NCBI GenBank assembly: GCA_001510455.1
Contig: LFFH01000041.1
Coordinates: forward strand, 1 to 11,832
Origin: Actinobacteria bacterium casp-actino8
GTDB lineage: Bacteria; Actinomycetota; Acidimicrobiia; Acidimicrobiales; Ilumatobacteraceae
DNA: 11,832 nucleotides
Reading direction: 5' to 3'
In this document: positions 1 through 11,832 of the stretch, one piece after another
How positions within the stretch are numbered: the stretch's first letter is position 1
Layout: the number at the start of each line of letters is the position of its first letter
Translations under genes and position numbers: made by a program
Notes under the pieces: model-generated
Seen by the model: only the letters and a program-made list of their open reading frames with translations
Databases searched by the model: none
Told to the model about the DNA's origin: nothing

Positions 1-1809
1 GCCCACCCCGACGACGAGCGCTATCAGCCGCTCTTCGGCACCACCGTGCACACTCCGTTGTACGGCGTCGAGGTTCCAGTGGTCGCCCATCCGCTCGCCC
101 AACCCGACAAGGGCACGGGTATCGCCATGATCTGTACGTTCGGCGACACCACCGACGTCACGTGGTGGCGCGAACTGAATCTCCCCACTCGGGCCATCAT
201 CGGTCGAGACGGTCGTATCGTCGCCACACCACCGAACGGTCTCGACTCGGCCGCTGGGATCGCGGCTTTCGAACACATCGCCGGGCTGTACGTGAATCAG
301 GCCCAGAACAAGGTCGTCGAGATGCTGCGCGAATCGGGCGCGATGATCGGCGATCCGCGCCCGATCACTCACCCCGTGAAGTTCTTCGAGAAGGGTGATC
401 GTCCGCTCGAGATCGTGACCAGCCGTCAGTGGTACATCCGAAACGGCGGCCGTGGTGACGAGTTACGTCGCGACCTTCTGGCTCGCGGCGAGAGTCTCAC
501 GTGGCATCCCGATCACATGCGACACCGCTATTCCAATTGGGTCGAGGGTCTGAACGGCGACTGGCTCATCAGCCGACAGCGCTACTTCGGTGTGCCGATC
601 CCGGTCTGGTATCCACTCGATGCCAACGGCGAGATCGATCACGACCATCCGATCGTTCCCGACGAGACGATTCTCCCGATCGACCCGTCGACCGACGTGC
701 CACCCGGTCACTCGGCCGATCAACGCGATCAACCGAACGGTTTCACGGGCGATCCCGACGTGATGGACACCTGGGCGACCTCGTCACTGTCACCGCAGAT
801 CGCCGGTCAATGGGAAGAGGACCCCGACCTCTTCGCCCGACTCTTCCCCATGGATCTGCGACCGCAGGCCCACGACATCATCCGCACGTGGCTCTTCAGC
901 ACCGTCGTGCGCGCGCACTTCGAACACGACTCGCTTCCATGGACGAACACTGCGTTGTCGGGTTGGATCCTCGACCCCGACCGCAAGAAGATGTCGAAGT
1001 CGAAGGGCAACGTCGTCACCCCACTCGACCTGTTCGACAAGTTCGGATCCGACGCCGTTCGCTATTGGGCCGCCTCGGCTCGTCCGGGTATCGACACCGC
1101 CTTCAGCGAAGAACAGATGAAGGTGGGCCGAAAGCTGGCCACCAAACTTCTCAACGCCTCGAAGTTCGTCCTCGGCTTCGGCGAGCCGCCCGGTGGTGCG
1201 ACACCCACCTCACCTCTCGATCTCGCCATGCTCGCCCGCATCGCTCACACCGTCGACGAAGCGACTCGAGCCTTCGACGAATACGATTACGCCCGCGCTC
1301 TCGAGCGCACCGAAGCCACGTTCTGGTGGTTCTGCGACGACTACGTCGAACTGGTGAAGGGTCGTGCGTACGGCGTGCACGGCGACGAGGGTGCGGCTTC
1401 GGCGCAGGTGTCACTGCGTCTCGCTCTCTCGGCCCTTCAGCGACTTCTCGCACCGTTCATTCCCTTCGCGACCGAGTCGGTGTGGCGCTGGTGGCAACCG
1501 GGATCGGTGCACACGGCGTCGTGGCCGAAGGCCGAGGAGTACCCCTCCACGGGTGACGCATCCATGCTCGATCCCGTCGGTGAGGTGTTGGCGCAGATCC
1601 GCCGATCGAAGACCGAAGCGAAGACGTCGCAGAAGACTCCGGTGTCTCTCGCCACCGTTCGTGCATCGGCCGCTCACTGCGCGGCGATCGAACTCGGTCG
1701 CGCCGAACTCGCCGACGCCGGAAGCGTCGAGTCATGGGAGACGATCACCGACGACTCGGTGTCGACCCCATCGGTGTCGGTGCAGTTGGCCGTCGATTCC
1801 ACCTCCTGA
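1..1809 (+). CDS. valS: Valyl-tRNA synthetase, 5'-truncated by the window edge
   Basis: Class I aminoacyl-tRNA synthetase that charges tRNA-Val in the cytoplasm and edits mischarged threonine. The frame is open from base 1, so the ATG at 46 is internal; 602 residues are visible and the N-terminal catalytic part (HIGH motif) lies outside. The visible part starts in the CP1 editing domain, with a DKGTG motif (fragment residues about 39-43) followed by CTFGDTTD. It continues through the catalytic core (ISRQRYFGVPIPVW, DVMDTWATSS) to KMSKS at fragment residues 330-334, then a helical anticodon-binding domain. The editing motif and the absence of a C-terminal coiled-coil arm resemble the shorter archaeal-like ValS lineage more than the E. 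coli type (inference). The LCP gene follows after 39 bp. Identification is secure; the lineage call is moderate. Confidence 0.96.
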   Translation, partial: AHPDDERYQPLFGTTVHTPLYGVEVPVVAHPLAQPDKGTGIAMICTFGDTTDVTWWRELNLPTRAIIGRDGRIVATPPNGLDSAAGIAAFEHIAGLYVNQAQNKVVEMLRESGAMIGDPRPITHPVKFFEKGDRPLEIVTSRQWYIRNGGRGDELRRDLLARGESLTWHPDHMRHRYSNWVEGLNGDWLISRQRYFGVPIPVWYPLDANGEIDHDHPIVPDETILPIDPSTDVPPGHSADQRDQPNGFTGDPDVMDTWATSSLSPQIAGQWEEDPDLFARLFPMDLRPQAHDIIRTWLFSTVVRAHFEHDSLPWTNTALSGWILDPDRKKMSKSKGNVVTPLDLFDKFGSDAVRYWAASARPGIDTAFSEEQMKVGRKLATKLLNASKFVLGFGEPPGGATPTSPLDLAMLARIAHTVDEATRAFDEYDYARALERTEATFWWFCDDYVELVKGRAYGVHGDEGAASAQVSLRLALSALQRLLAPFIPFATESVWRWWQPGSVHTASWPKAEEYPSTGDASMLDPVGEVLAQIRRSKTEAKTSQKTPVSLATVRASAAHCAAIELGRAELADAGSVESWETITDDSVSTPSVSVQLAVDSTS

Positions 1810-1833
1810 CCCGAGCCGACACGGGCCGACCGG

Positions 1834-1839
1834 TAACTT
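1834..1839 (+). promoter_or_regulatory. Possible -10 element (TAACTT) before the LCP gene
   Basis: TAACTT fits the actinobacterial -10 pattern TANNNT and ends 9 bases before the GTG at 1849, which would put transcription start at or just before the start codon (a leaderless or nearly leaderless mRNA). No convincing -35 box is visible, and the only purine-rich stretch (GGCAGGG) lies too close to the GTG for a clean ribosome binding site. The element is weak and read-through from valS is equally possible. Confidence 0.3.
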
Positions 1840-1848
1840 GGCAGGGCT

Positions 1849-3123
1849 GTGAAGGACCGACCCCGCCGCCGACGACGAACCTGGCCACAACGCCTCGTCC
1901 TGGTCCTGAACGTGGGGGTGGCTCTCGCCTGCTTCGTCGCCGCCGTGGCGATCTTCTACGGCAGCGAGAAAGCGAACGACCGCAAGGTCGTGACTCTGGC
2001 GAGCGCCTCGGGTCCGCGTCTCACGCTGCCCACGGCCACTCAACCCGACGGCACTCCCGACGAGACCACCGAGGTCACCCTGGTGTCCGGACCGGTCGAC
2101 ATGTCGGCTCGCAACTTCCTCATCACAGGCAGCGACAACGGCGCCTGTGTCGATCCCGACTCGCCGTACGCCGATGCCTTCGGGAATCGCAACGGACTCG
2201 GAGAACGCGCCGACACGATCATGATCCTGCGTCTCGATCCCAACACCAATGCGTCGGCGGTGTTGTCGTTCCCACGCGACCTGTGGGTCAAGATCGCCGG
2301 TCGTTCGTCGAGCAGTCGCATCAACAGCGCTTTCAACCGTGACGATCCCAACACCCTCGTACTCACCATCTGGGAGAACTTCGGCGTCCCGGTCGATCAC
2401 TACGTGAACGTCGACTTCTGCGCGTTCAAGCAGATCGTCGACGCCGTCGGTGGTGTGCGAGTTCCCTTCACCACCGGAATTCGTGACCGCAACACCGGAC
2501 TCCTCATCGAAGAACCCGGTTGCCACACCTTCCTCGGGGAAGAAGGACTCGCCTACGTTCGGTCGCGCAAACTTCAATACTTCGACGAGGACTCGCGCAA
2601 GTGGAAGAGTGACCCGGCCGCCGATCGCGGTCGTATCTCGCGTCAGCAGGACTTCCTTCGCCGAGCACTCCAGAAGGCCCTCGACGTCGGAGCCGGGAGT
2701 CCGACCGTGGCCAAACAACTCATCGACGCTGCTCTCGAATACGTGATCCTCGACGATCAGCTGACTCCCGGCAAGCTTCTCGAACTCGCCCAAGCGATGC
2801 GAGATCTCGATCCCGACACGATGAAGACCTATCAGATCGAGGGAACCGGCAAGATGATCAACGGCAACGCTGTCATCGAACCCAACATCAAGAGCGAGAG
2901 CATGAAGGCCGTGCTCGCCGTGTTCAAGGGTGAGGCTCGGTTGGTCGATGCACCTGCACAACTCGTCGAGGATCCCACGTCGACGACCACGACCACTCGC
3001 GCACCGTCGGGGTCCACGACTTCGGTGAGCGGAACCACGACGTCGACCTCCACCCTGCCTCCGGTGTTCGTCGAATCCGACGAGATCGGTGTTCTGCCGA
3101 CCGACGACCCCGCCTGTCGCTAG
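1849..3123 (+). CDS. LytR-CpsA-Psr (LCP) family cell-wall glycopolymer transferase
   Basis: LCP proteins transfer polyprenyl-phosphate-linked glycopolymers onto peptidoglycan at the outer face of the membrane. The 424-aa product has a short Arg-rich cytoplasmic start (residues 4-10), one membrane segment at about 16-37, and an LCP domain from about 85 to 290. Family landmarks are RADT at 120-123, FPRD at 141-144, SRINSAFNR at 156-164 and AYVRSR at 235-240; these arginines and aspartates bind the pyrophosphate and Mg2+ in characterised LCP enzymes. After the domain comes a Ser/Thr-rich, probably disordered stretch (about 376-400) and a short tail ending in Cys-Arg. Four cysteines in the extracellular part could form disulfides. 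The GTG start gives a proper N-in signal anchor. The gene is 39 bp after valS and its stop overlaps the opposing VWA gene by 4 bp. The polymer transferred cannot be told from sequence. Confidence 0.9.
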   Translation: MKDRPRRRRRTWPQRLVLVLNVGVALACFVAAVAIFYGSEKANDRKVVTLASASGPRLTLPTATQPDGTPDETTEVTLVSGPVDMSARNFLITGSDNGACVDPDSPYADAFGNRNGLGERADTIMILRLDPNTNASAVLSFPRDLWVKIAGRSSSSRINSAFNRDDPNTLVLTIWENFGVPVDHYVNVDFCAFKQIVDAVGGVRVPFTTGIRDRNTGLLIEEPGCHTFLGEEGLAYVRSRKLQYFDEDSRKWKSDPAADRGRISRQQDFLRRALQKALDVGAGSPTVAKQLIDAALEYVILDDQLTPGKLLELAQAMRDLDPDTMKTYQIEGTGKMINGNAVIEPNIKSESMKAVLAVFKGEARLVDAPAQLVEDPTSTTTTTRAPSGSTTSVSGTTTSTSTLPPVFVESDEIGVLPTDDPACR

Positions 3124-4013
3124 TCGCCGAGCACCGACTGCAACGCCGCCGGCACATCACTCGGCCCGGCCACGATCGCGACTCGCGCGCCGATCTGCGC
3201 TGCCAGAGCGCGGGCTTCCAGATCGTCCTCGGCCGGGGCGATGATCACCACCTCGTCGAGACCGCGGGCCGCCGCCACCACGTCGCCCTCCACGGTGGCC
3301 CGACAATCGCTCAACACCACGGCGATTCGACGACCCGCTCTCGATCGAGACAATTGTTCGTTCGCCGTGCGAAGAGCTCCGGCCAGGTCGGTGGTTCCGA
3401 ATCCACGGAGCGCGAGTACGTCGTTCACGACCAACTCACTCCCCTTCGAGGATTCCTGACTCTTCACGACCACCACGTCCTTGCCGAACGTGATGACGCT
3501 GTAGTCCTCGGGACTGCGCCAGGCCACCGCCGCCGTGGCCACGGCCGACGTGGCGAGGGGTTCGCCGCCCATCGATCCACTGCGATCGACACACAACGCA
3601 ATGGCGGTTCCCGGTCGCACCCAGGTGCGCACCTTCAACTCCTCGGGATCGATTGCCGATCGGGCTGCTCGCGACTCGACGACGGCACTCATGGACGCGT
3701 CGAGATCGATGTCACCGGCATCGGGGCGATACGGCAACGTGGCCATCTTGCCGATCCCGCGTGGGCGGATCGGACCACGCTTGGCGAGGTCGAGGAACAA
3801 ACGACCGGCCAAGCGTTTGGCCAGATCGCGCAACTTCGGATCGGTGGCTCCGGTGAGATCGGCCAGCAAGGCGAGCATGGCATCAGGGTCGTCGTCCATG
3901 GCGTCGTCGACGGCACTCTCGTCGAGTTCACCCACCTCGGGCGAGACCTGTTCGAACTGATCGTGCTTGGCCAGATCACGCCGGGACAGCGTGCGCTTCG
4001 AAGCCTCCGACAC
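3120..4013 (-). CDS. VWA-domain protein with intact MIDAS, partner of the upstream MoxR-type ATPase
   Basis: This 297-aa cytoplasmic protein has no signal peptide or membrane segment. Residues 1-130 are acidic and helical. A von Willebrand A domain runs from about 134 to the end, with a complete metal-ion-dependent adhesion site: DRSGS at 143-147, Thr207/Thr208 with Asp209, and Asp236 in LSDC. In known AAA+/VWA pairs (CoxD/CoxE, NorQ/NorD, CbbQ/CbbO) the VWA protein links the ATPase to the target enzyme being activated or metallated. The GTG at 4013 is the start; no better in-frame start exists before the stop of the ATPase gene 29 bp upstream, and an AAGGAAGGGG stretch about 17 bases upstream is a distant candidate ribosome site. 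It is the last gene of the minus-strand block and ends in the shared CTAG with the LCP gene. The target protein is not proven. Confidence 0.85.
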   Translation of the reverse strand: MSEASKRTLSRRDLAKHDQFEQVSPEVGELDESAVDDAMDDDPDAMLALLADLTGATDPKLRDLAKRLAGRLFLDLAKRGPIRPRGIGKMATLPYRPDAGDIDLDASMSAVVESRAARSAIDPEELKVRTWVRPGTAIALCVDRSGSMGGEPLATSAVATAAVAWRSPEDYSVITFGKDVVVVKSQESSKGSELVVNDVLALRGFGTTDLAGALRTANEQLSRSRAGRRIAVVLSDCRATVEGDVVAAARGLDEVVIIAPAEDDLEARALAAQIGARVAIVAGPSDVPAALQSVLGD

Positions 4014-4042
4014 AGCCTCGTCGGCGGCGGCCCCTTCCTTGG

Positions 4043-4957
4043 CTAGTGGGTCGCCCCCGTCGGGGCGCTCACTTTTCCCCCGCCGGCCTCGGTGGTTGGG
4101 ACGAACACCTCGTTCCAGAGTTCGGTCACCACGTCTTCACTCGTACGCGTACTGCCTTCGCGCAGACGAACTCGGCCCGACAGCGCCACGAGAGCCGCAT
4201 CGAGCGACACTCCACTGTCGTGGACCGTGCTCCCGCGCACTGACGCGAGCGACCGAGCGACGGCGGCCATGTCGATCGCCCCGCGCACCGACGACCCCAC
4301 CCGCAGATCGGGATGAGTTCGCGTGCGTCGCACGAGATCGACGACCTTGTCGAGCCAACCGCTCGGAAGATCGTCACCAGCTCTCGATGCGATGCGGACC
4401 TCGTCGGCCGCCGATTGATAGCCCATCGACACTCGACACACGCGGTCGTACACCGCACCCGAGATACGCGCCGTTCCGACGGCGTCGAACGGGTTCATGG
4501 CGGCCACGAGGCGGAAACCGTCAGTTGCCACCACCCGACCGAAACGAGGCACGTTGAGTTCGCCTTCGCTCATCACCGTGATGAGAACGTTCAAAGTCTC
4601 TTCGGGAATACGGTTGATCTCCTCGACGTACAGCAACGAACCATCACGCATGGCCGTCACGAGCGGTCCGTCGACGAACACGTCGGGTTCGTAGCCCTCG
4701 TTCAGTACACGCGCCGGGTCGAAGTGTCCGACCAGACGGGCCGGCGTGAGCTCGGCGTTGCCCTCCACGAACACGAAACCGATCCCGAGTCCTTCGGCGA
4801 CTGCTCGCAACAACGTGCTCTTGCCCGTACCCGGAGGGCCCTCGAGCAAGACGTGTCGATCGGCATCGAGCGCAGCGACGACCAGTTCGACCTCACGACG
4901 ACGTCCGACGACCGAACCGTCGAGCGCGTCGAGCAGAGAGCGACGAGACGTGGTCAC
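4043..4957 (-). CDS. MoxR-type AAA+ ATPase
   Basis: AAA+ ATPase of the MoxR/CbbQ/CoxD kind, 304 aa, cytoplasmic and expected to act as a ring-shaped chaperone or remodeller together with the VWA protein. Walker A is GPPGTGKST at residues 40-48. The Walker B region is SLLYVEEINRI at 107-117, where the usual Asp-Glu pair reads Glu-Glu (112-113). Sensor 1 lies in the AAMNP motif, followed by a C-terminal lid rich in Arg. The GTG start at 4957 sits inside the sequence GTGA, overlapping the stop of ADH1 by 4 bp, a classic translational-coupling junction; the VWA gene follows after 29 bp. Known relatives insert metals into, or reactivate, carbon monoxide dehydrogenase, nitric oxide reductase and Rubisco. 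Linkage to an alcohol dehydrogenase suggests, but does not prove, that ADH1 is the client. Confidence 0.88.
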   Translation of the reverse strand: MTTSRRSLLDALDGSVVGRRREVELVVAALDADRHVLLEGPPGTGKSTLLRAVAEGLGIGFVFVEGNAELTPARLVGHFDPARVLNEGYEPDVFVDGPLVTAMRDGSLLYVEEINRIPEETLNVLITVMSEGELNVPRFGRVVATDGFRLVAAMNPFDAVGTARISGAVYDRVCRVSMGYQSAADEVRIASRAGDDLPSGWLDKVVDLVRRTRTHPDLRVGSSVRGAIDMAAVARSLASVRGSTVHDSGVSLDAALVALSGRVRLREGSTRTSEDVVTELWNEVFVPTTEAGGGKVSAPTGATH

Positions 4958-6114
4958 GCGTTGACGATCACACCACGGATGTTGGTGCCGTCGCGCATCG
5001 CCTGATAGCCCTCGTTGATCTGGTCGAGGCTGTAGGTCTTGGTGATGAGCTCATCGAGCTTCAACTGACCGGCGCGATACATGTCGAGAAGGGCCGGGAT
5101 GTCGGCACGCGGGTTGAGCGAACCGAAGATCGTTCCCTTGATCTCCTTGTTCCACATGGCCAACTGGAAGAGGTTGACCGACGCGGTCTCCGACGTCATC
5201 GGCGAAATGGCGGTGACCACCACCGTGCCGCCCTTGCCGGCCAGATTCATACCGTCGGCCATCATCTCGCCCTCGAGAACACCGGGGGTCATGATGACGC
5301 GGTCGGCCATCTGTCCGTACGTCATCTCCATGACCGGCATCATCGCTTCGGCCATCGACGAATAGGTGTGCGTGGCACCGAACTCCATCGCCTTCTCACG
5401 CTTGAACTCGACGGGATCGACGGCGATGATGCGCTTCGCACCCGCCATACGCGCGCCCTGAACGGCGTTCATTCCGATACCGCCGCATCCGACCACCACC
5501 ACGGTGTCACCGGCCTGGGTGCCGGCTCGATTGGCGGCCGAACCCCATCCGGTGGCCACACCGCACGACACGAGTGCGACGCATTCGAGTGGAATGTCCT
5601 TTTCGACCTTGATGATCGACTGCTCGGCGACACACGCGAATTCACTGAAGGTGCCGAGTTTGGCCATGAGCGTGACCGGCTTGCCCTTCACGAAGTGACG
5701 GTGCGTGTCGTCGGTGATCATGCCGCCGATGAACGTCTTGGCGCCGTTGTCGCACAGGTTCTGGCGTCCGGTCGAGCAGTAGCGGCAGCGACCACACGAC
5801 GGCACGAACGATGCCGACACGTGATCGCCCACCTGGACCGACGTGACACCGGGCCCGACTTCCACCACGACACCAGCACCTTCGTGACCGCCGATGATCG
5901 GGAAGAAGTCCTCGATGCCCATCAGTTCGAACATCTCGGACGGTGGGACCATGTCACCGGTGACGAGGTGCTCGTCGGAATGGCACATGCCAGCCGCTCT
6001 CCAGTGCACGATGACCTCACCGGCCTTCGGTGGATGAACCTCGATCTCTTCGACCGACCATTCCTGGTTCAGACCCCACAGAACCGCAGCTTTCGACTTG
6101 CGAACTTCCGACAT
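4954..6114 (-). CDS. Zn-dependent NDMA-type (nicotinoprotein) alcohol dehydrogenase, ADH1
   Basis: Medium-chain zinc alcohol dehydrogenase of the Rxyl_3153/NDMA-dependent family. Characterised members keep NAD(H) tightly bound and pass electrons to an external acceptor, in vivo probably mycofactocin. The 386-aa product has catalytic-zinc ligands Cys44, His77 and Cys184, a structural-zinc set CGRCRYCSTGRQNLC at 107-121, a Rossmann motif GCGGIG at 209-214 and Asp233 for the NAD ribose. Between residues 55 and 71 it carries 12 more residues than ADH2, near the substrate pocket in this fold. I chose ATG 6114 because AGGGGGAG lies 5 bases upstream and the ADH2 start aligns nearby; a further 14 codons upstream are open but lack support. 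It lies 94 bp after ADH2 and overlaps the AAA+ gene by 4 bp. The physiological alcohol is unknown. Confidence 0.92.
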   Translation of the reverse strand: MSEVRKSKAAVLWGLNQEWSVEEIEVHPPKAGEVIVHWRAAGMCHSDEHLVTGDMVPPSEMFELMGIEDFFPIIGGHEGAGVVVEVGPGVTSVQVGDHVSASFVPSCGRCRYCSTGRQNLCDNGAKTFIGGMITDDTHRHFVKGKPVTLMAKLGTFSEFACVAEQSIIKVEKDIPLECVALVSCGVATGWGSAANRAGTQAGDTVVVVGCGGIGMNAVQGARMAGAKRIIAVDPVEFKREKAMEFGATHTYSSMAEAMMPVMEMTYGQMADRVIMTPGVLEGEMMADGMNLAGKGGTVVVTAISPMTSETASVNLFQLAMWNKEIKGTIFGSLNPRADIPALLDMYRAGQLKLDELITKTYSLDQINEGYQAMRDGTNIRGVIVNA

Positions 6115-6208
6115 CTCGTCTCCCCCTGATCCGGCGTCGCGCGCTCGATGCGACACGACGTGTACCCCTCGCCCGAAACGCTAGCGACCTGGCCGTTGTG
6201 AGCGGAAC
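6115..6208 (-). other. 94-bp gap between ADH2 and ADH1 with a small inverted repeat
   Basis: The gap holds the ADH1 ribosome site and an 11-bp inverted repeat, ACACG-A-CGTGT, at 6153-6163. No hairpin followed by a T-run is visible, so ADH2 transcription may read into ADH1. The gap is long compared with the other junctions of this block, and a separate ADH1 promoter is possible, but no good -10/-35 pair stands out. The repeat could equally be chance in GC-rich DNA. Confidence 0.3.
6120..6127 (-). promoter_or_regulatory. Strong Shine-Dalgarno site of ADH1
   Basis: On the minus strand this reads AGGGGGAG, 5 bases before the ATG at 6114. It is the clearest ribosome binding site I found in the window and decides the ADH1 start against the longer open frame reaching 6156. 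Confidence 0.75.
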
Positions 6209-7321
6209 TCAGTCGTAGACGAGGACACCGCGGATGTTCTCACCCTTGCGCATGGCCTCGTAGCCCTCGTTGATCCCCTCCAAGGGGTAGGTCCGGGTCA
6301 CGAGTCCGTCGAGGTCGAGTTGCCCCTCTCGGTAGAGGTTGGCGAGCTTCGGAATGTCGGCCCGCGGGTTACCCGAACCGAAGAGAGAGCCGACGATCTG
6401 CTTCTCCATGAGGGTCACGTCGAGGAGGTTCACGTTGGCCGTCATCTCGAGCGCCGGGTGGATGTTGGTCACCACCACACGGCCTCGCTTCGAGGCCATG
6501 GCCATGGCCTCGGCCAACACCTGACCGTCGCCCACACCCATCGTCATGATCACCTTGTTGGCCATCGTTCCCCACGTGATGTCCTGCAGGAGCGGCAACG
6601 CCTCGGCCATCGACGAAGCCGTGTGCGTGGCTCCGAAGTCCATCGCCTTCTCGCGCTTGAACTCGACCGGATCGATGGCGACGATGCGCTTGGCGCCCGC
6701 CAGTCGCGCACCCTGGATCGCGTTGGCGCCGATACCACCCACACCGACGACGGCGACCGTGTCGCCGGGTCGTACCTGCGCGGCGTACACCGACGAACCC
6801 CAACCGGTCACCACACCGCAACCGAGGAGGCACATCTTGTCGAGCGGTAGATCGGGTTCGACCTTGATGCACGACGCCTCGTTCACGACCGTGTGGAGAG
6901 CGAAGGTACCGAGCAGACACATGAGTCCGAGGTCCTGACCGTTGGCGTGGTGTCGCGCACCACCGTCGGTGATCTGACGACCACCACCCATGAGGGCACC
7001 GAGGTCGCACAGGTTCTGATGACCGGTCGAACAACTCGGACACCGTCCGCACGACGGAATGAAACCGAAGACCACGTGGTCACCGGGAGCCAGCCAACTC
7101 ACACCCTCTCCGACTTCACGAACGATTCCGGCGCCCTCGTGGCCGCCGATGATCGGCAGCGCGAACGGCAGGTCTCCGGTCACGAGATGCTCGTCGGAAT
7201 GGCACATTCCCGACGCCTTCATCTCGACGAGCACTTCACCGGCCTTCGGTGCATCGAGCTCGATCTCCTCGATGCTCCACGGTGCACCCAACTCCCACAA
7301 CACTGCTGCCTTGGTCTTCAC
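6209..7321 (-). CDS. Zn-dependent NDMA-type (nicotinoprotein) alcohol dehydrogenase, ADH2
   Basis: Second member of the same nicotinoprotein family, 370 aa. Zinc ligands are Cys40, His61 and Cys168 (catalytic) and CGRCPSCSTGHQNLC at 91-105 (structural). The NAD site is GVGGIG at 193-198 with Asp217. The C-terminal part carries the NPRADIPKL and GYEAMRKGENIRGV segments shared with ADH1. The start is GTG 7321, with a GGGGAAATGGGGA purine stretch just upstream. It is the first gene of the minus-strand block and is divergent from mftA across 90 bp, the layout expected if both are controlled from one regulatory region. By family knowledge the bound NADH is reoxidised in place by mycofactocin rather than exchanged. 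The substrate is unknown. ADH2 lacks the 12-residue insert of ADH1 and so may prefer a different alcohol (inference). Confidence 0.93.
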   Translation of the reverse strand: MKTKAAVLWELGAPWSIEEIELDAPKAGEVLVEMKASGMCHSDEHLVTGDLPFALPIIGGHEGAGIVREVGEGVSWLAPGDHVVFGFIPSCGRCPSCSTGHQNLCDLGALMGGGRQITDGGARHHANGQDLGLMCLLGTFALHTVVNEASCIKVEPDLPLDKMCLLGCGVVTGWGSSVYAAQVRPGDTVAVVGVGGIGANAIQGARLAGAKRIVAIDPVEFKREKAMDFGATHTASSMAEALPLLQDITWGTMANKVIMTMGVGDGQVLAEAMAMASKRGRVVVTNIHPALEMTANVNLLDVTLMEKQIVGSLFGSGNPRADIPKLANLYREGQLDLDGLVTRTYPLEGINEGYEAMRKGENIRGVLVYD

Positions 7322-7340
7322 GAGATCCCCATTTCCCCAG

Positions 7341-7355
7341 GGCCACCGGGTGGCC
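7341..7355. repeat. 15-bp inverted repeat, candidate operator
   Basis: GGCCACC-G-GGTGGCC is a perfect 7-bp arm palindrome around one central base. It lies 20 bp before the ADH2 start, so a bound protein could block ADH2 transcription. A hairpin in the ADH2 leader is the alternative. Role inferred from position and symmetry only. Confidence 0.45.
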
Positions 7356-7378
7356 GAACCATCGAAGAGAACGGTAGT

Positions 7379-7393
7379 CCCCGACGGCCGGGG
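7379..7393. repeat. Second inverted repeat, candidate operator near the mftA -35 zone
   Basis: CCCCG-ACGGC-CGGGG has 5-bp arms and ends 6 bp before the mftA -10-like element, overlapping where a -35 box would sit. The arms are short and GC-only, so this is weaker than the repeat at 7341-7355. The two arm sequences differ, so they are not obviously sites of one protein. Confidence 0.3.
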
Positions 7394-7399
7394 CAGTTG

Positions 7400-7405
7400 T
7401 ACGCT
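7400..7405 (+). promoter_or_regulatory. -10-like element of mftA, suggesting a leaderless transcript
   Basis: TACGCT matches TANNNT and ends 6 bases before the ATG at 7412, so transcription would start at or next to the A of the start codon. No ribosome binding site lies at normal spacing (the nearest G-rich stretch is about 15 bases away), which agrees with leaderless translation, common in actinobacteria. No good -35 is visible. Confidence 0.4.
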
Positions 7406-7411
7406 TGTCGT

Positions 7412-7573
7412 ATGGACAGCACCGTGACCCCCACCGTGACCCCCTCCGTGACGTCAGCCGACGACATCACCGCTGACCACGGCGTCATCGAATCGTCCGC
7501 CACGACGCCCGCCTCCGCCGACGAACTCCTCATCGAAGAGATCTCGATCGACGGCATGTGCGGGGTCTACTGA
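7412..7573 (+). CDS. mftA: Mycofactocin precursor peptide MftA
   Basis: Ribosomally made precursor of the redox cofactor mycofactocin, 53 aa. The C-terminus IDGMCGVY (residues 46-53) is the hallmark of the family. In the known pathway the last two residues, Val52 and Tyr53, become the cofactor core: MftC oxidatively decarboxylates the Tyr and cross-links it to the Val, and the peptidase MftE then releases the modified dipeptide. The acidic stretch before it, DELLIEEIS (37-45), is the typical leader recognised by MftB. The N-terminal part is unusual: Thr/Val/Pro-rich, encoded by a 12-bp tandem repeat, making the peptide longer than the roughly 30-aa precursors I know from mycobacteria. The ATG at 7412 is preferred for its upstream -10-like element; in-frame GTGs at 7424, 7436 and 7448 are alternatives. 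mftB follows with overlap. Confidence 0.95.
   Translation: MDSTVTPTVTPSVTSADDITADHGVIESSATTPASADELLIEEISIDGMCGVY
7421..7453 (+). repeat. 12-bp tandem repeat inside mftA
   Basis: Two exact copies of ACCGTGACCCCC (7421-7432, 7433-7444) are followed by a partial third copy, TCCGTGACG. In frame they encode Thr-Val-Thr-Pro units. Each copy carries an in-frame GTG, so repeat number changes both leader length and the number of possible start codons. Confidence 0.85.
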
Positions 7574-7866
7574 TCCCGCCTCGCCCCGTGGCCGTCGCGC
7601 TCGACTCGAGCCTCGAACTCCACCCCCAGGTGGCGGTCCGGCCCGAACCCTTCGGCGCCCTGGCCTACCACTACGGCAATCGACGCCTGATCTTCCTGAA
7701 GCACCCCGACGTGGTCTCGGTCGTGAACAGTCTCGACCAGCACGCCACCCTGGCCGACACCCTCGACGCCTGCGGTGTCGACCCCGAACGCTGGTCGTCG
7801 TTCGTCTCGGCCCTGTCGTCCCTCGAATCCTCGGAGATCGTCCGTGAGCGTGCAACCACTCGTTGA
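7558..7866 (+). CDS. mftB: Mycofactocin peptide chaperone MftB
   Basis: Small RiPP-recognition-element protein (PqqD-like winged helix) that binds the MftA leader and delivers it to MftC. The 102-aa product has the family core LHPQVAVRPEPFGALAYHYG followed by IFLKHPDVVSVVNSL. The frame opens with GTG 7558, inside the ATG-TGC codons of mftA, overlapping mftA by 16 bp. GTG 7588, 14 bp after the mftA stop, would give 92 aa and is equally close to the usual family length. Neither has a ribosome site at normal spacing, so coupling to mftA translation is likely. The 3' end overlaps mftC by 23 bp. Assignment rests on sequence pattern plus position between mftA and mftC; the start is uncertain. Confidence 0.9.
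   Translation: MRGLLIPPRPVAVALDSSLELHPQVAVRPEPFGALAYHYGNRRLIFLKHPDVVSVVNSLDQHATLADTLDACGVDPERWSSFVSALSSLESSEIVRERATTR
7833..7836 (+). promoter_or_regulatory. Shine-Dalgarno site of mftC
   Basis: GGAG lies 7 bases before the GTG at 7844, inside mftB. It settles the mftC start against the longer open frame that begins at 7775, whose extra residues are only the out-of-frame reading of mftB. Confidence 0.65.
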
Positions 7867-8971
7867 GCAATTGAAAGGTGGGCTCGACGCCCCCATCTGT
7901 CTCACGTGGGAACTCACCTACGCGTGCAACCTGCAGTGCGTGCACTGTCTGTCGTCGAGTGGACAACGAGATCCGCGCGAACTCACGACGGCCGAAGCGA
8001 TGCACGTCCTCGACGAATTACGCGACCTGCAGGTCTTCTACATCAACATCGGCGGCGGCGAACCGATGGTACGGCGCGACTTCTTCGATCTCGTCGAATA
8101 CTCGGTCGGCAACGGCATCGGTGTGAAGTTCTCGACCAATGGTGCCTTCATCGACGCCGAGAAGGCACGACGACTGGCGGCCATGGATTATCTCGACATC
8201 CAGATCAGCCTCGACGGAGTCGACGAGGCCACGAACGACGCCGTGCGCGGAGCCGGCTCGTATCGCATGGCGCGCACCGCCATGGACGAACTGGCCGCGG
8301 CGGGATTCGGTCCGTTCAAGATCTCGGTGGTCGTCACCCGACACAACGTGGCGCAGCTCGACCAGTTCAAGGCCCTCGCCGACTCGTACGGCGCGCAACT
8401 GCGTGTCACTCGTCTGCGTCCGTCCGGACGCGGTGCCGACTCGTGGCACGAACTGCATCCGACACTCAGCCAACAACGTCAGATCTACGACTGGCTCATG
8501 GCCAACGGCGAGAACGTTCTCACCGGTGACTCCTTCTTCCATCTCAACGCTCTCGGCGATCCGCTGCCCGGACTCAACATGTGCGGAGCCGGACGGGTGG
8601 TGTGTCTCATCGATCCGATCGGTGAGGTGTATGCGTGTCCGTTCGTCATTCACGACGAGTTCCGGGCCGGCAACGTGCGAGACGCCGGCGGTTTCGCCAA
8701 GGTCTGGAAAGAGAGCGACTTGTTCCGCTCACTGCGCGAACCGCAGTCGGCGGGTGCCTGCGCGTCGTGCGGTTCCTACGACGCGTGTCAGGGCGGATGC
8801 ATGGCGGCCAAGTTCTTCACCGGTCTCCCCCTCGACGGTCCCGATCCCGAATGTGTGGGCGGTGACGGTGAGCACGCACTGCAGTCGGTCGTTCCCGGAT
8901 CGGCTCCCAAACCGGCCATGGATCACACCAAGCCGGTACGACTCGTCCGCAAACCGGTCAGCACTTCCTGA
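7844..8971 (+). CDS. mftC: Mycofactocin radical SAM maturase MftC
   Basis: Radical S-adenosylmethionine enzyme of the SPASM group, 375 aa, cytoplasmic. In characterised systems it first oxidatively decarboxylates the C-terminal Tyr of MftA, then forms a carbon-carbon bond to the neighbouring Val, using MftB as partner. The radical SAM cluster ligands are in CNLQCVHC (Cys28, Cys32, Cys35), and the SAM-contacting GGGEP motif follows at about residue 69. The SPASM domain supplies cysteines for auxiliary Fe-S clusters: Cys247, Cys254, Cys265, Cys306, Cys309, Cys315, Cys319 and Cys337, a complete-looking set. GTG 7844 is chosen because of the GGAG site 7 bases upstream and the family-like N-terminus. 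It overlaps mftB by 23 bp, and its TGA shares one base with the ATG of the next gene. Confidence 0.96.
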   Translation: MSVQPLVEQLKGGLDAPICLTWELTYACNLQCVHCLSSSGQRDPRELTTAEAMHVLDELRDLQVFYINIGGGEPMVRRDFFDLVEYSVGNGIGVKFSTNGAFIDAEKARRLAAMDYLDIQISLDGVDEATNDAVRGAGSYRMARTAMDELAAAGFGPFKISVVVTRHNVAQLDQFKALADSYGAQLRVTRLRPSGRGADSWHELHPTLSQQRQIYDWLMANGENVLTGDSFFHLNALGDPLPGLNMCGAGRVVCLIDPIGEVYACPFVIHDEFRAGNVRDAGGFAKVWKESDLFRSLREPQSAGACASCGSYDACQGGCMAAKFFTGLPLDGPDPECVGGDGEHALQSVVPGSAPKPAMDHTKPVRLVRKPVSTS

Positions 8972-10857
8972 TGCGCCTCACCGAGTCGTTGTCACTCGGC
9001 GCGCGCACGGCGCCGAATCGAGTCATGTTCGGTCCGCACGTCACCAACCTGGGCGACGACGACCGACGATTCACCGACCGACACGTCGCGTATTACGAGC
9101 GTCGGGCCCGCGGTGGTTGCGGTGTGATCGTGGTCGAGGGCGCGAGTGTTCACGAGAGCGACTGGCCCTACGAGCGCGCTCCCCTGGCGCCGCTTTGTGG
9201 TGAGGGTTGGCGGACGATCTCCGACGCCTGTCATCGACATGGTTCCCTCGTGATCGCCTCACTCGATCACGCGGGTGGCCAGGGTTCGTCGGCCTATTCG
9301 CAACTCCCGCTGTGGGCGCCGTCACGCGTTCCCGAGGTGAACTCCCGGGAGGTTCCGAAGTGGATGGAGGCCGACGACGTTCGAGCCGTGATCGACGGCT
9401 TCATCGCTGCGGCACGTCTCGCCGTTGCGTCGGGCGTCGACGGAATCGAGATCAACGCCGGCCAGCACAGTCTCGTGCGTCAGTTCATGTCGGGCCTCAC
9501 CAACCAACGCGGTGACGAGTGGGCCGACCGAACCGCCTTCGCCCGACGAGTGATCGACTCGGTACGCGCCGAGGTGGGTGACGCGATCGTCGGCCTTCGT
9601 CTGTCGTGCGACGAACTCGCGCCGTGGGCCGGTATCACTCCGGAAATGGCTCCGGCGATCGCCGCCGAACTCGCCGCCTGTGGCCTCGACTACGTCGTCG
9701 TCGTGCGTGGCGCGATCTTCTCGGCCGAAAAGACACGACCTGATTTCCACGAGCCCACCGGATTCAACATCGACGTGTGCCGGGCCGTGCGCACCGCCGT
9801 TCCCGCGGCGGTCACGGTGTTCTTGCAGGGTTCGATCGTCGACATGGGTCAGGCCGAGTGGGCGATCGGAGACGGCGTGTGCGACGGCGTCGAGATGACG
9901 CGCGCACAGATCGCCGATCCCGATCTGGTGGCGAAGGTCCGCGCCGACGAGATCGATCGCATTCGACCTTGCCTCCGCTGCAACCAGACGTGTCAGGTGC
10001 GTGACGCGCGTAATCCGATCGTGTCGTGCGTGGGTGAACCGTCGTCGGGTCACGAGAGCGACGATCCCGATTGGTATCGAACGGCAACGAACTCCCGACG
10101 GGTGCTGGTGATCGGAGGGGGTCCGGCCGGGCTCGAAGCGGCCCGAATCGCCGCGATCCGCGGACATTCGGTGACCGTCGTCGACACGGCGGCCGAGCTC
10201 GGCGGTCTGGCTCGGGTGGCTGGTCCCGGCGTACCACTGGTCGACTGGCTCGAACGCGAGTGCCGTCGTTCGAACGTGACGCTCGAGACCGGAGTCGACG
10301 AGTCGTCGATCGCCGCACGTCTCCCCGACTTCGACGTCGTGGTGCAAGCCACCGGGTCGCGACGCGGCCTTCCCGAGTACACCGCCGACACCGACGTCAT
10401 CGACATCGCCGATCTCCGTCGTGGCACGTCGACCCTTCCCGCTTCCGGAACGGTGATCGTCCTCGATCCGATCGGCGGACCCATCGGAGTTGCGCTAGCC
10501 GAAGAACTCGGCGATCGGGCCGTTCTCGTCACCCCCGACAACATCGCCGGCAACGAGCTGTCACGAACCGGCGATCTTGCCCCGGCCAATGTCCGACTCG
10601 CTCAGCGAGGCGCGACTGTCGTCAAACGCGCCGTGGTCCGCAACGTCGAACGGGCCGATGACGGAGTGCGCGTCCGAATTCAGGACCGTTTCTCCGGAGA
10701 GATCTCACATCTCGACGCGGTCGCCGTGGTCGACGCCGGTTTCCGTCTGCCCACCGAACCTCTCCCGGGCACCCACCACGTCATCGGCGACGCCGTGGCC
10801 CCGCGCACGTTGCTCGAAGCGGTTCTCGAGGGACGACGCGCCGCCCACCAGATCTAG
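8971..10857 (+). CDS. Mycofactocin-associated OYE/FadH-family FMN, Fe-S and FAD oxidoreductase
   Basis: Homolog of 2,4-dienoyl-CoA reductase and trimethylamine dehydrogenase, 628 aa, cytoplasmic. Residues 1-330 form an Old Yellow Enzyme FMN barrel, with the NAGQHSLVRQF segment continuing into LTNQRGDEW. Cys334, Cys337, Cys341 and Cys353 form the CX2CX3CX11C site for a 4Fe-4S cluster. A dinucleotide-binding motif GGGPAG lies at 382-387, and a C-terminal GDAVAPRTLLEA segment closes the nucleotide site. Two such families (mycofactocin system FadH/OYE 1 and 2) are known to co-occur with mycofactocin; which one this is I cannot tell. It starts at ATG 8971, overlapping the mftC stop by one base (TGATG), so translation is probably coupled. 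The likely role is electron transfer or enoate-type reduction linked to the cofactor (inference). Its substrate is unknown. Its stop overlaps the methyltransferase gene by 4 bp. Confidence 0.88.
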   Translation: MRLTESLSLGARTAPNRVMFGPHVTNLGDDDRRFTDRHVAYYERRARGGCGVIVVEGASVHESDWPYERAPLAPLCGEGWRTISDACHRHGSLVIASLDHAGGQGSSAYSQLPLWAPSRVPEVNSREVPKWMEADDVRAVIDGFIAAARLAVASGVDGIEINAGQHSLVRQFMSGLTNQRGDEWADRTAFARRVIDSVRAEVGDAIVGLRLSCDELAPWAGITPEMAPAIAAELAACGLDYVVVVRGAIFSAEKTRPDFHEPTGFNIDVCRAVRTAVPAAVTVFLQGSIVDMGQAEWAIGDGVCDGVEMTRAQIADPDLVAKVRADEIDRIRPCLRCNQTCQVRDARNPIVSCVGEPSSGHESDDPDWYRTATNSRRVLVIGGGPAGLEAARIAAIRGHSVTVVDTAAELGGLARVAGPGVPLVDWLERECRRSNVTLETGVDESSIAARLPDFDVVVQATGSRRGLPEYTADTDVIDIADLRRGTSTLPASGTVIVLDPIGGPIGVALAEELGDRAVLVTPDNIAGNELSRTGDLAPANVRLAQRGATVVKRAVVRNVERADDGVRVRIQDRFSGEISHLDAVAVVDAGFRLPTEPLPGTHHVIGDAVAPRTLLEAVLEGRRAAHQI

Positions 10858-11832
10858 ACGATCGACTCGATTCGTTCGACCACATCGGACGCGAGCACGT
10901 CGACGACGGCTCTCACCGCTCCGTCGTTCACCACCGCGTCGAGTGCGGCCCCACCGCTCGCCCGTTCGGGCAATCCGGAGGTGAACACCACGAGTCCTCG
11001 TCCGGTCACCGCTTTCACGGCCGCCGCTCGGCCGAGTGTTCGCCACACCAGTTCACCGCGCTGCAACCCGGGTCGAACCGTGGTGTGTCCTCCGGCCAGA
11101 TCGAACAGGATCTCGCGCCCGTCGGCCGAACGGGCTCGTCCCGACACCTCGAGACCCGGCGTGATCTTCACGCCCCAGTCGATCGATCCGAAACCTGCCG
11201 CCCGAAGAGACGCGTCGACGATGTCGCGCAGAGTGCGGATGTCGTCACGACCGTTCTCATCACTTCTCGCGTCACCCTCGTGACGTAGTCGTTCGTGCGC
11301 CAGGTCGACGTAGGCCGGATCGGTGTCGTACCCCACGAAATGGCGGCCGGTTCGTCGAGCCGCCACGGCTGTGGAACCCGAACCCATGAACGGGTCGAGC
11401 ACCAGATCGCCGGCGAACGAATAGAGATGAATGCACCGCTCGACGAGTGACACCGGGAACGGCGCCGGGTGATTCACTCGGGTCGCGCTCTCGGGAGCGA
11501 TCTCCCAGACGTCGAGAGTCGCTTCCATGAATTCGTCACCAGTCACGGTCGACTCGAAAGGAAGACCGCGCTTCTCGCGCTTGCTCACCGGAACGGCCCG
11601 GTCGAAACGCCCCTTGCTCGCGATCACGAGACGTTCGGTCGTGTCACGAAGCACCGGATTGGTTGGCGAACGGTACGAACCCCACGCGCAACTCCCCGAC
11701 GACCCACGCTGTTTCATCCACACGACTTCACCTCGGAGCAACAGACCGAGATCGTCCTGGAGGATGTCGGTCACGTCGGCGGCGAGCGATCGGAACGGCC
11801 GTCGTCCGAGATTGGCCACGTTGACGACCATG
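10854..11832 (-). CDS. Beta-class site-specific DNA methyltransferase (N4-cytosine or N6-adenine), 5'-truncated
   Basis: SAM-dependent DNA methyltransferase; the frame runs off the right edge, and the ATG at 11831 is almost certainly internal, because the VNVANLGR segment normally follows the catalytic (S/D/N)PP(Y/F) motif, which is not in the visible part. Numbering from that Met, visible parts are HPAPFP at 121-126, the SAM-binding motif DPFMGSGST at 146-154 and VGYDTDPAYVDLAHERL shortly after. The order (catalytic motif first, SAM site late) is that of beta-class enzymes. About 135 residues follow the methyltransferase fold, with a FDLAGGHTTVRPGLQRG segment; this may be a target-recognition or nuclease-like domain, but I do not recognise it with certainty. 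No restriction endonuclease is visible beside it, though the upstream side is outside the window. Convergent with the OYE gene. Confidence 0.87.
   Translation of the reverse strand, partial: MVVNVANLGRRPFRSLAADVTDILQDDLGLLLRGEVVWMKQRGSSGSCAWGSYRSPTNPVLRDTTERLVIASKGRFDRAVPVSKREKRGLPFESTVTGDEFMEATLDVWEIAPESATRVNHPAPFPVSLVERCIHLYSFAGDLVLDPFMGSGSTAVAARRTGRHFVGYDTDPAYVDLAHERLRHEGDARSDENGRDDIRTLRDIVDASLRAAGFGSIDWGVKITPGLEVSGRARSADGREILFDLAGGHTTVRPGLQRGELVWRTLGRAAAVKAVTGRGLVVFTSGLPERASGGAALDAVVNDGAVRAVVDVLASDVVERIESIV

Follow-up and report, generated by a model that had tools for sequence, protein, structure and literature searches.

The closest described systems to the gene pair treated here are NorQ/NorD and CbbQ/CbbO, both of which combine an AAA+ ATPase with a VWA-domain protein. 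In NorQD, a finger of NorD (residues 403-448) enters the pore of the ATPase, and ATP-driven twisting is proposed to open the client enzyme (PMC13036017), and for the Rubisco activase CbbQ/CbbO the ATP-dependent freeing of the enzyme from tightly bound inhibitors is reported (PMC4660213). A pair of this kind is encoded on a stretch of 11,832 nucleotides from Actinobacteria bacterium casp-actino8 (contig LFFH01000041.1, positions 1 to 11,832, referred to as the window), directly behind the gene of an alcohol dehydrogenase (ADH) of the mycofactocin-linked TIGR03989 family. The association of the ATPase and the VWA protein with mycofactocin dehydrogenases is strong, and the chemistry of their action is inferred: the pair may be an ATP-driven remodeller dedicated to mycofactocin-dependent nicotinoproteins, prying them open so that their cofactor can be renewed or engaged, a reading that we favour with somewhat less than even confidence.

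As judged from sequence motifs and predicted folds, both proteins belong to the classes known from these systems. The ATPase (304 amino acids, GTG start, positions 4043-4957 on the minus strand according to the open reading frame (ORF) listing) matches the Pfam models AAA_5 (91 bits), AAA_3 (52 bits) and bpMoxR, all above cut-off. It contains the motifs GPPGTGKS (residues 40-47) and LLYVEE (residues 108-113), which correspond to Walker A and Walker B, as well as a segment ELTPARLVG (residues ~69-77), which we read from the sequence as the putative helix-2 insert; the P-loop and the ELTP residues are invariant in an alignment of 51 ATPases (A2, without locus L049). Together with a MoxR/NorQ-like fold, these features place the protein in the MoxR-type AAA+ class. 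Its nearest relatives are named only MoxR-like or AAA family ATPase, where they are named at all (best 120 of 7284 matches in a protein search). The VWA protein (297 amino acids, GTG start, 3120-4013, minus strand) passes the Pfam models VWA_2 (37 bits) and VWA_CoxE (34.4 bits, cut-off 26.4), and its residues D143, S145, S147, T208 and D236, which form the metal ion-dependent adhesion site (MIDAS) of the VWA domain, are invariant across a 43-row alignment (A1). The complete MIDAS and the adjacent ATPase gene identify it as the VWA partner of a MoxR ATPase. Its predicted model shows a helical N-terminus and a VWA core at ~135-297, preceded by a strand-helix-strand segment (89-132) which, by its position, may represent the finger (~85-133). 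The models (predicted local distance difference test scores of 89.8 for the ATPase and 87.5 for the VWA protein) were compared with known structures by Foldseek, which returned NorQ as the best PDB fold for the ATPase (TM-score to target up to 0.86), followed by CbbQ (6l1q, 5c3c), and NorD within NorQD as the best match for the VWA protein (best E 2.7e-10); in a VIA-align listing, the 50 rows were for the most part VWA domains of eukaryotes, and NorD was not among them. As a side observation, the ATPases of close relatives share a GKxxAP-like C-terminal tail just before the VWA gene, and residues resembling this tail continue past a stop in L019 and L008.

The resemblance to AAA+/VWA pairs which the sequence-only reading had pointed out is thus borne out by models closest to NorQD and CbbQ, and the pair still differs from each known system. 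As in NorQ/NorD, which insert iron into nitric oxide reductase, the genes of the ATPase and the VWA protein lie beside that of a presumed client, but in place of a membrane metalloenzyme this client would be a dehydrogenase whose NAD(H) is captive, NorQ is only ~25% identical to the ATPase in the structural alignment, and NorD is numbered to residue 638 (PMC13036017), compared to the 297 residues of the VWA protein. No nor gene was found among the ten window proteins scanned, and no NorQ or NorD model was listed. CbbQ/CbbO differ in client and sequence, and the scanned window proteins include no Rubisco. The VWA_CoxE match and the gene layout recall CoxD/CoxE, which act in cluster assembly of CO dehydrogenase, and neither a CO dehydrogenase gene nor a molybdenum hydroxylase was detected among the ten window proteins scanned. 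A free ATPase accompanied by an ATPase-VWA fusion, the layout of ChlI/ChlD, recurs in some of the related arrays described below and likens the system to the I and D subunits of magnesium and cobalt chelatases, from which it is set apart by chelatase models scoring far under cut-off and by the lack of a tetrapyrrole gene in the scanned protein set of the window.

In the window, the minus strand carries the series ADH2, ADH1, ATPase, VWA gene. ADH1 (4954-6114, 386 amino acids, ATG at 6114 within a mechanical ORF that opens at 6156) and ADH2 (6209-7321), which lies 94 bp upstream of ADH1, are both TIGR03989 NDMA (N,N-dimethyl-4-nitrosoaniline)-dependent zinc alcohol dehydrogenases, scoring 548 and 550 bits (cut-off 440, hence ~110 bits above it). 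The ADH1 stop codon TGA (4956-4954) overlaps the ATPase start GTG (4957-4955) in a GTGA, and 29 bases separate the ATPase stop from the VWA start, so that the ORF listing and the sequence confirm the spacing reported in the sequence-only reading. The span of 4043-6114 given there for three genes holds the ATPase and ADH1 only, with the VWA gene (3120-4013) lying outside, and ADH2, probably the first gene of the ADH1-ATPase-VWA operon, had not been named.

A first set of related loci was obtained by scanning one genome per species for the ATPase via query peptide patterns. The best 80 of 202 relatives include 51 actinobacterial loci with ATPase identities of 53-94%, followed by a gap to values of ≤36%. 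The gene directly upstream of the ATPase in these 51 loci is a TIGR03989-like ADH in 38 cases, a short-chain dehydrogenase/reductase (SDR) in five, MftE in one (L021), and none of these in seven. Among the SDRs, those of L016, L026 and L048 are mycofactocin-coupled by NCBIfam and those of L020 and L022 are generic. Of the seven without such a neighbour, L046 contains a divergent SDR 69% identical to that of L048, L027 has its ADH 2.1 kb upstream of the ATPase, L032 carries mftF downstream of the pair, the upstream neighbour of L001 is lost to the contig end, and L029, L038 and L043 have nothing related. Among the genomes of this set (L049 left out), 42 of 50 possess mftC above cut-off, including all 12 without a label as metagenome-assembled genome (MAG); all eight misses are MAGs, and one of them, L026, shows the order SDR-ATPase-VWA followed by mftE and mftF. 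None of 29 more distant ATPase loci, used as control, has a TIGR03989-like ADH, a mycofactocin-coupled SDR or an mft match (1e-8), and in one a generic SDR lies at a distance of 8 kb. The adjacencies of ATPase with VWA gene and of dehydrogenase with ATPase recur in most relatives, and none of the distant loci has such dehydrogenase or mft neighbours (0/29); the pair is not a chance neighbour.

Since the first set is biased to close relatives, two genome draws were made as an offset, with requested completeness thresholds of 90 and 85. Draw 1 comprises 246 genomes spread evenly over the actinobacterial phylum, including its centre G012, in which the pair had been found before; draw 2 comprises 227 genomes from the class of G004, partly overlaps draw 1 and contains three genomes known beforehand (G004, G015, G041). 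The ATPase profile was applied at a threshold of E 1e-40, and absences of the ATPase are soft because only ten candidate stretches per genome were scored. Draw 1 contains the ATPase in 22 genomes, mftC in 33 and TIGR03989 in 30, all 30 of the latter together with mftC. The gene for mftC occurs in 19 of the 19 genomes with an ATPase of ≥367 bits compared to 14 of 227 others (Fisher p 8e-20, like all such values here uncorrected for kinship among the genomes), or in 19 of 22 if three genomes with weaker ATPases, left out of the 19, are counted (p 1e-16). Of the 24 ATPase places in the 19 genomes, 18 immediately follow a TIGR03989 ADH and four immediately follow a mycofactocin-coupled SDR, the remaining two being second ATPases in such SDR arrays, and all 22 VWA places of ≥179 bits adjoin an ATPase place. 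Draw 2 yields the ATPase in 38 genomes, mftC in 58 and both in 37, i.e., mftC in 37 of 38 ATPase genomes compared to 21 of 189 others (p 2e-26), and in 23 of 24 if only genomes first seen in this draw are considered. The single exception, G447, carries the series SDR-ATPase-VWA-mftE-mftF. The 26 new ones among the 40 ATPase places of draw 2 follow an ADH (19), a TIGR04504-like SDR (4, namely those of L152, L154, L160 and L161, classed by tblastn identities of 61-75% to a TIGR04504 member), another SDR (1), MftE (1) or nothing related (1; L173, a second ATPase copy in G377). The tie to mycofactocin-linked dehydrogenases proposed in the sequence-only reading, and the genome survey against ADH1 homologs and mftC that it had called for, thus came out positive in both draws, with direct adjacency to nicotinoprotein genes in addition. 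Because it is rarely found without a mycofactocin system in the sampled actinobacteria, the ATPase is probably a dedicated service machine for these dehydrogenases.

The gene arrangements that speak for function (ARRANGEMENTS) are operons containing the pair, ATPase-VWA fusions and own ATPase copies for individual enzymes. Three genomes (G061, G091, G145; L112, L113, L114) show the series SDR-mftB-mftC-ADH-ATPase-VWA-mftE-mftF with other genes in between, as judged by tblastn, which calls mftE and mftF there at only 30-37% identity. The ATPase and the VWA protein are separate genes in the window and most other loci and are joined in one reading frame in these three genomes as well as in G101, G258 and Pseudonocardia autotrophica (L038). 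In G258 (L108, 3970-9533) and G101 (L109, 4423-9009), runs of TIGR03971 SDRs are followed by a free ATPase and then an ATPase-VWA fusion, and each genome has a separate ADH-ATPase-VWA locus elsewhere; likewise, G012 possesses one ADH-linked and one SDR-linked ATPase. That different enzymes have ATPase copies of their own points to the adjoining dehydrogenase as the client. On the ATPase tree, SDR-linked copies fall into separate clades, and at least four switches of partner between ADH and SDR are seen, in a quick search that left out L049, has long outgroup branches, does not count partner-less rows, and codes second tandem ATPases and generic SDRs as SDR, one of the changes involving the generic SDRs. 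A generic FabG-like SDR (L022 7879-8619, L020 9222-9980, L170 2221-2958) makes up a cassette of its own with ATPase and VWA gene, the SDRs of L020 and L170 being 83-98% identical to the L022 copy by tblastn.

The main partners have captive NAD(H) linked to mycofactocin as a common trait. The SDR fold has no zinc site, and the NAD(H) of mycofactocin enzymes does not exchange. TIGR03989 enzymes and mycofactocin-coupled SDRs alike bind NAD(H) tightly and are tied to mycofactocin (PMC3023750, PMC5264612). With one exception, mycobacterial TIGR03971 SDRs are loaded with NAD when produced in E. coli, and NAD release from mycobacterial SDRs is said to require a large conformational change (PMC5264612). 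We prefer a reactivase over a factor for first NAD loading because of these two properties of the SDRs. In the mechanism we envisage, the ATPase and the VWA protein would form a two-part machine, with ADH1 and probably ADH2 as its clients in the window. Docking on the dehydrogenase would be the task of the VWA protein; the hexameric ATPase, coupled via the VWA finger, might then twist or stretch the enzyme until the cage that encloses the captive NAD(H) opens at the NAD site, upon which spent, damaged or inhibited NAD(H) may be renewed or mycofactocin may engage. Formation of the complex, the role of the neighbour as client and captive NAD(H) rather than zinc as target are inferred. A nicotinoprotein reactivase which opens the NAD(H) cage in two unrelated folds, zinc-containing medium-chain dehydrogenases and zinc-free SDRs, and which takes a ChlI/ChlD-like form in SDR arrays, is a possibility that we advance with clear reservation.

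A single specific ADH as client is ruled out, as the gene adjoining the ATPase in relatives is now an ADH1-like, now an ADH2-like paralogue. On the TIGR03989 tree, ADHs with the pair are dispersed, with 14 changes between paired and solo state (quick tree), and no tail or terminal motif marking them was seen by eye among 56 paired and 34 solo enzymes; the best single position differs in frequency by 0.59, a value that is uncorrected for shared descent and does not count five ADHs further up the operon.

Several observations weigh against a remodeller dedicated to nicotinoproteins. Nothing related lies beside the ATPase in L029, L038 and L043, and a nicotinoprotein directly upstream is lacking in these as well as in L032 and L173; in L020, L022 and L170, the ATPase gene follows a generic SDR. 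The eight first-set genomes without mftC above cut-off belong here, as do the three genomes of draw 1 with weaker ATPases (G082, G092, G093; 148-313 bits), which have neither mftC nor TIGR03989. A TIGR03989 ADH occurs in all 19 genomes of draw 1 with a strong ATPase, and eight of these have no mycofactocin-coupled SDR at the thresholds used. Conversely, most candidate clients lie apart from an ATPase, which adjoins 18 of 49 TIGR03989 places, three arrays among 70 TIGR03971 places and one of nine TIGR04504 places listed, with a limited number scored per genome. Finally, the mycobacterial TIGR03971 SDRs carry their NAD in E. coli without the pair (PMC5264612). Among the 33 mftC genomes of draw 1, 14 are without the ATPase (E 1e-40), and 11 of these have TIGR03989 ADHs; therefore, the pair is not required for every such enzyme, and it is an accessory or lineage-specific need.

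Of the alternatives, we consider it unlikely that the pair handles mycofactocin itself by loading, docking or unloading the glycosylated peptide cofactor or by serving its biosynthesis. At the genome level, the pair is tied to mftC no less tightly than to the dehydrogenases, and it stands directly before mftE and mftF in L016, L026, L111, L154, L160 and L161 and directly behind mftE in L021 and L168. However, six of the 19 draw 1 genomes lack mftC on the same contig within 25 kb and have a dehydrogenase directly adjoining the ATPase, mftC being clearly apart in G081, G101 and G258 and on other contigs in G012, G199 and G273, and the 14 mftC genomes without the pair also speak against this role. 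A role in biosynthesis only is not favoured, given the clear distance from mftC in three of the 19 genomes and its location on another contig in three more.

The sequence-only reading had proposed a maturase or reactivase for a zinc dehydrogenase, for example by loading zinc. In this alternative, which appears doubtful to us, the pair would insert or restore zinc in TIGR03989 dehydrogenases as NorQD does with non-haem iron. NorQ and NorD are indeed the closest solved folds, ADHs are by far the commonest direct neighbours of the ATPase, and the universal presence of a TIGR03989 ADH in the 19 strong ATPase genomes, eight of them without a recognized mycofactocin-coupled SDR, is compatible with action on zinc ADHs in trans. 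This universality keeps zinc loading as a rival, although it is weakened by the SDRs; it adds little, because 30 of the 33 mftC genomes have TIGR03989 anyway. As the partners switch between zinc ADHs and zinc-free SDRs, the latter with ATPases in separate clades and with their own copies in G258, G101 and G012, zinc loading by itself is unconvincing as a general explanation. The zinc-site residues of ADH1 (C44, H77, E78, C107, C110, C113, C121, C184), presumably catalytic and structural ligands by analogy to liver ADH, are conserved, and 56 paired and 34 solo ADHs show no difference at any of the eight zinc-ligand or active-site positions. Thus, zinc loading of one zinc ADH does not stand as it had been worded, with ADH1-like and ADH2-like paralogues as well as zinc-free SDRs preceding the same ATPase family, and the earlier interpretation as a whole is partly supported.

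Coupling to an electron chain, in which the pair would join the dehydrogenase to a membrane-bound or respiratory partner for the re-oxidation of mycofactocin, seems improbable, as the dehydrogenases that regularly adjoin the pair belong to soluble families. The parallel would be RavA-ViaA, for which roles with NADH:ubiquinone oxidoreductase and fumarate reductase are reported (PMC3893208, PMC10585395). A general MoxR/VWA chaperone located there by chance is rejected as very improbable on the association statistics of the two draws, the repeated re-association with different nicotinoprotein families and the absence of such neighbours from the 29 distant loci, although MoxR/VWA pairs occur widely and this one is missing from many mycofactocin genomes.

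No publication tying mycofactocin to a MoxR/VWA pair was found in the literature searched, which excluded most subscription journals, and a term search inside PMC3023750 and PMC11778925 gave no such link. A reactivase for an organic redox cofactor, instead of a metal or a sugar-phosphate inhibitor, would be the first of the MoxR/VWA class to our knowledge, and would add the handling of organic cofactors to metal insertion and Rubisco repair as tasks of this class. A motor tied to mycofactocin enzymes bears on how their non-exchanging NAD(H) is loaded, repaired or coupled to mycofactocin, and makes this question testable with few proteins and ATP. The pair may also be a missing component when mycofactocin enzymes of these actinobacteria are produced in other hosts.

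The minus-strand series of the window diverges from a plus-strand series of mycofactocin genes (7412-10857). It consists of mftA for the mycofactocin precursor with the C-terminus IDGMCGVY (7412-7573; TIGR03969, 48.5 bits, cut-off 25), mftB (ORF 7558-7866, with the true start probably inside; TIGR03967, 101 bits, cut-off 33), mftC for the radical SAM maturase (7844-8971; TIGR03962, 626 bits, cut-off 265) and the gene of the mycofactocin-system FadH/OYE (old yellow enzyme) oxidoreductase 1 (8971-10857; TIGR03996, 718 bits, cut-off 628). mftA, mftB and mftC are thus present together, with all three models above cut-off. Compact mft clusters without the ATPase/VWA pair were seen in small genomes (L139, L140, L141 of G208, G247, G262), which contain mftA-mftB-mftC-mftE, an SDR, mftF and an ADH, with no mftA match in L141. 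The mft genes of the window are followed by a DNA methylase gene (Pfam N6_N4_Mtase; 10854-11831, minus strand), relatives of which (35-65% identity by tblastn) occur on other mft-cluster loci (L016, L111, L112, L113, L154). The VWA end of the series is flanked by ValS and an LCP-family gene (1-3123), and this gene order is retained in many relatives, e.g., L001, L002, L009, L010, L149, L150 and L155.

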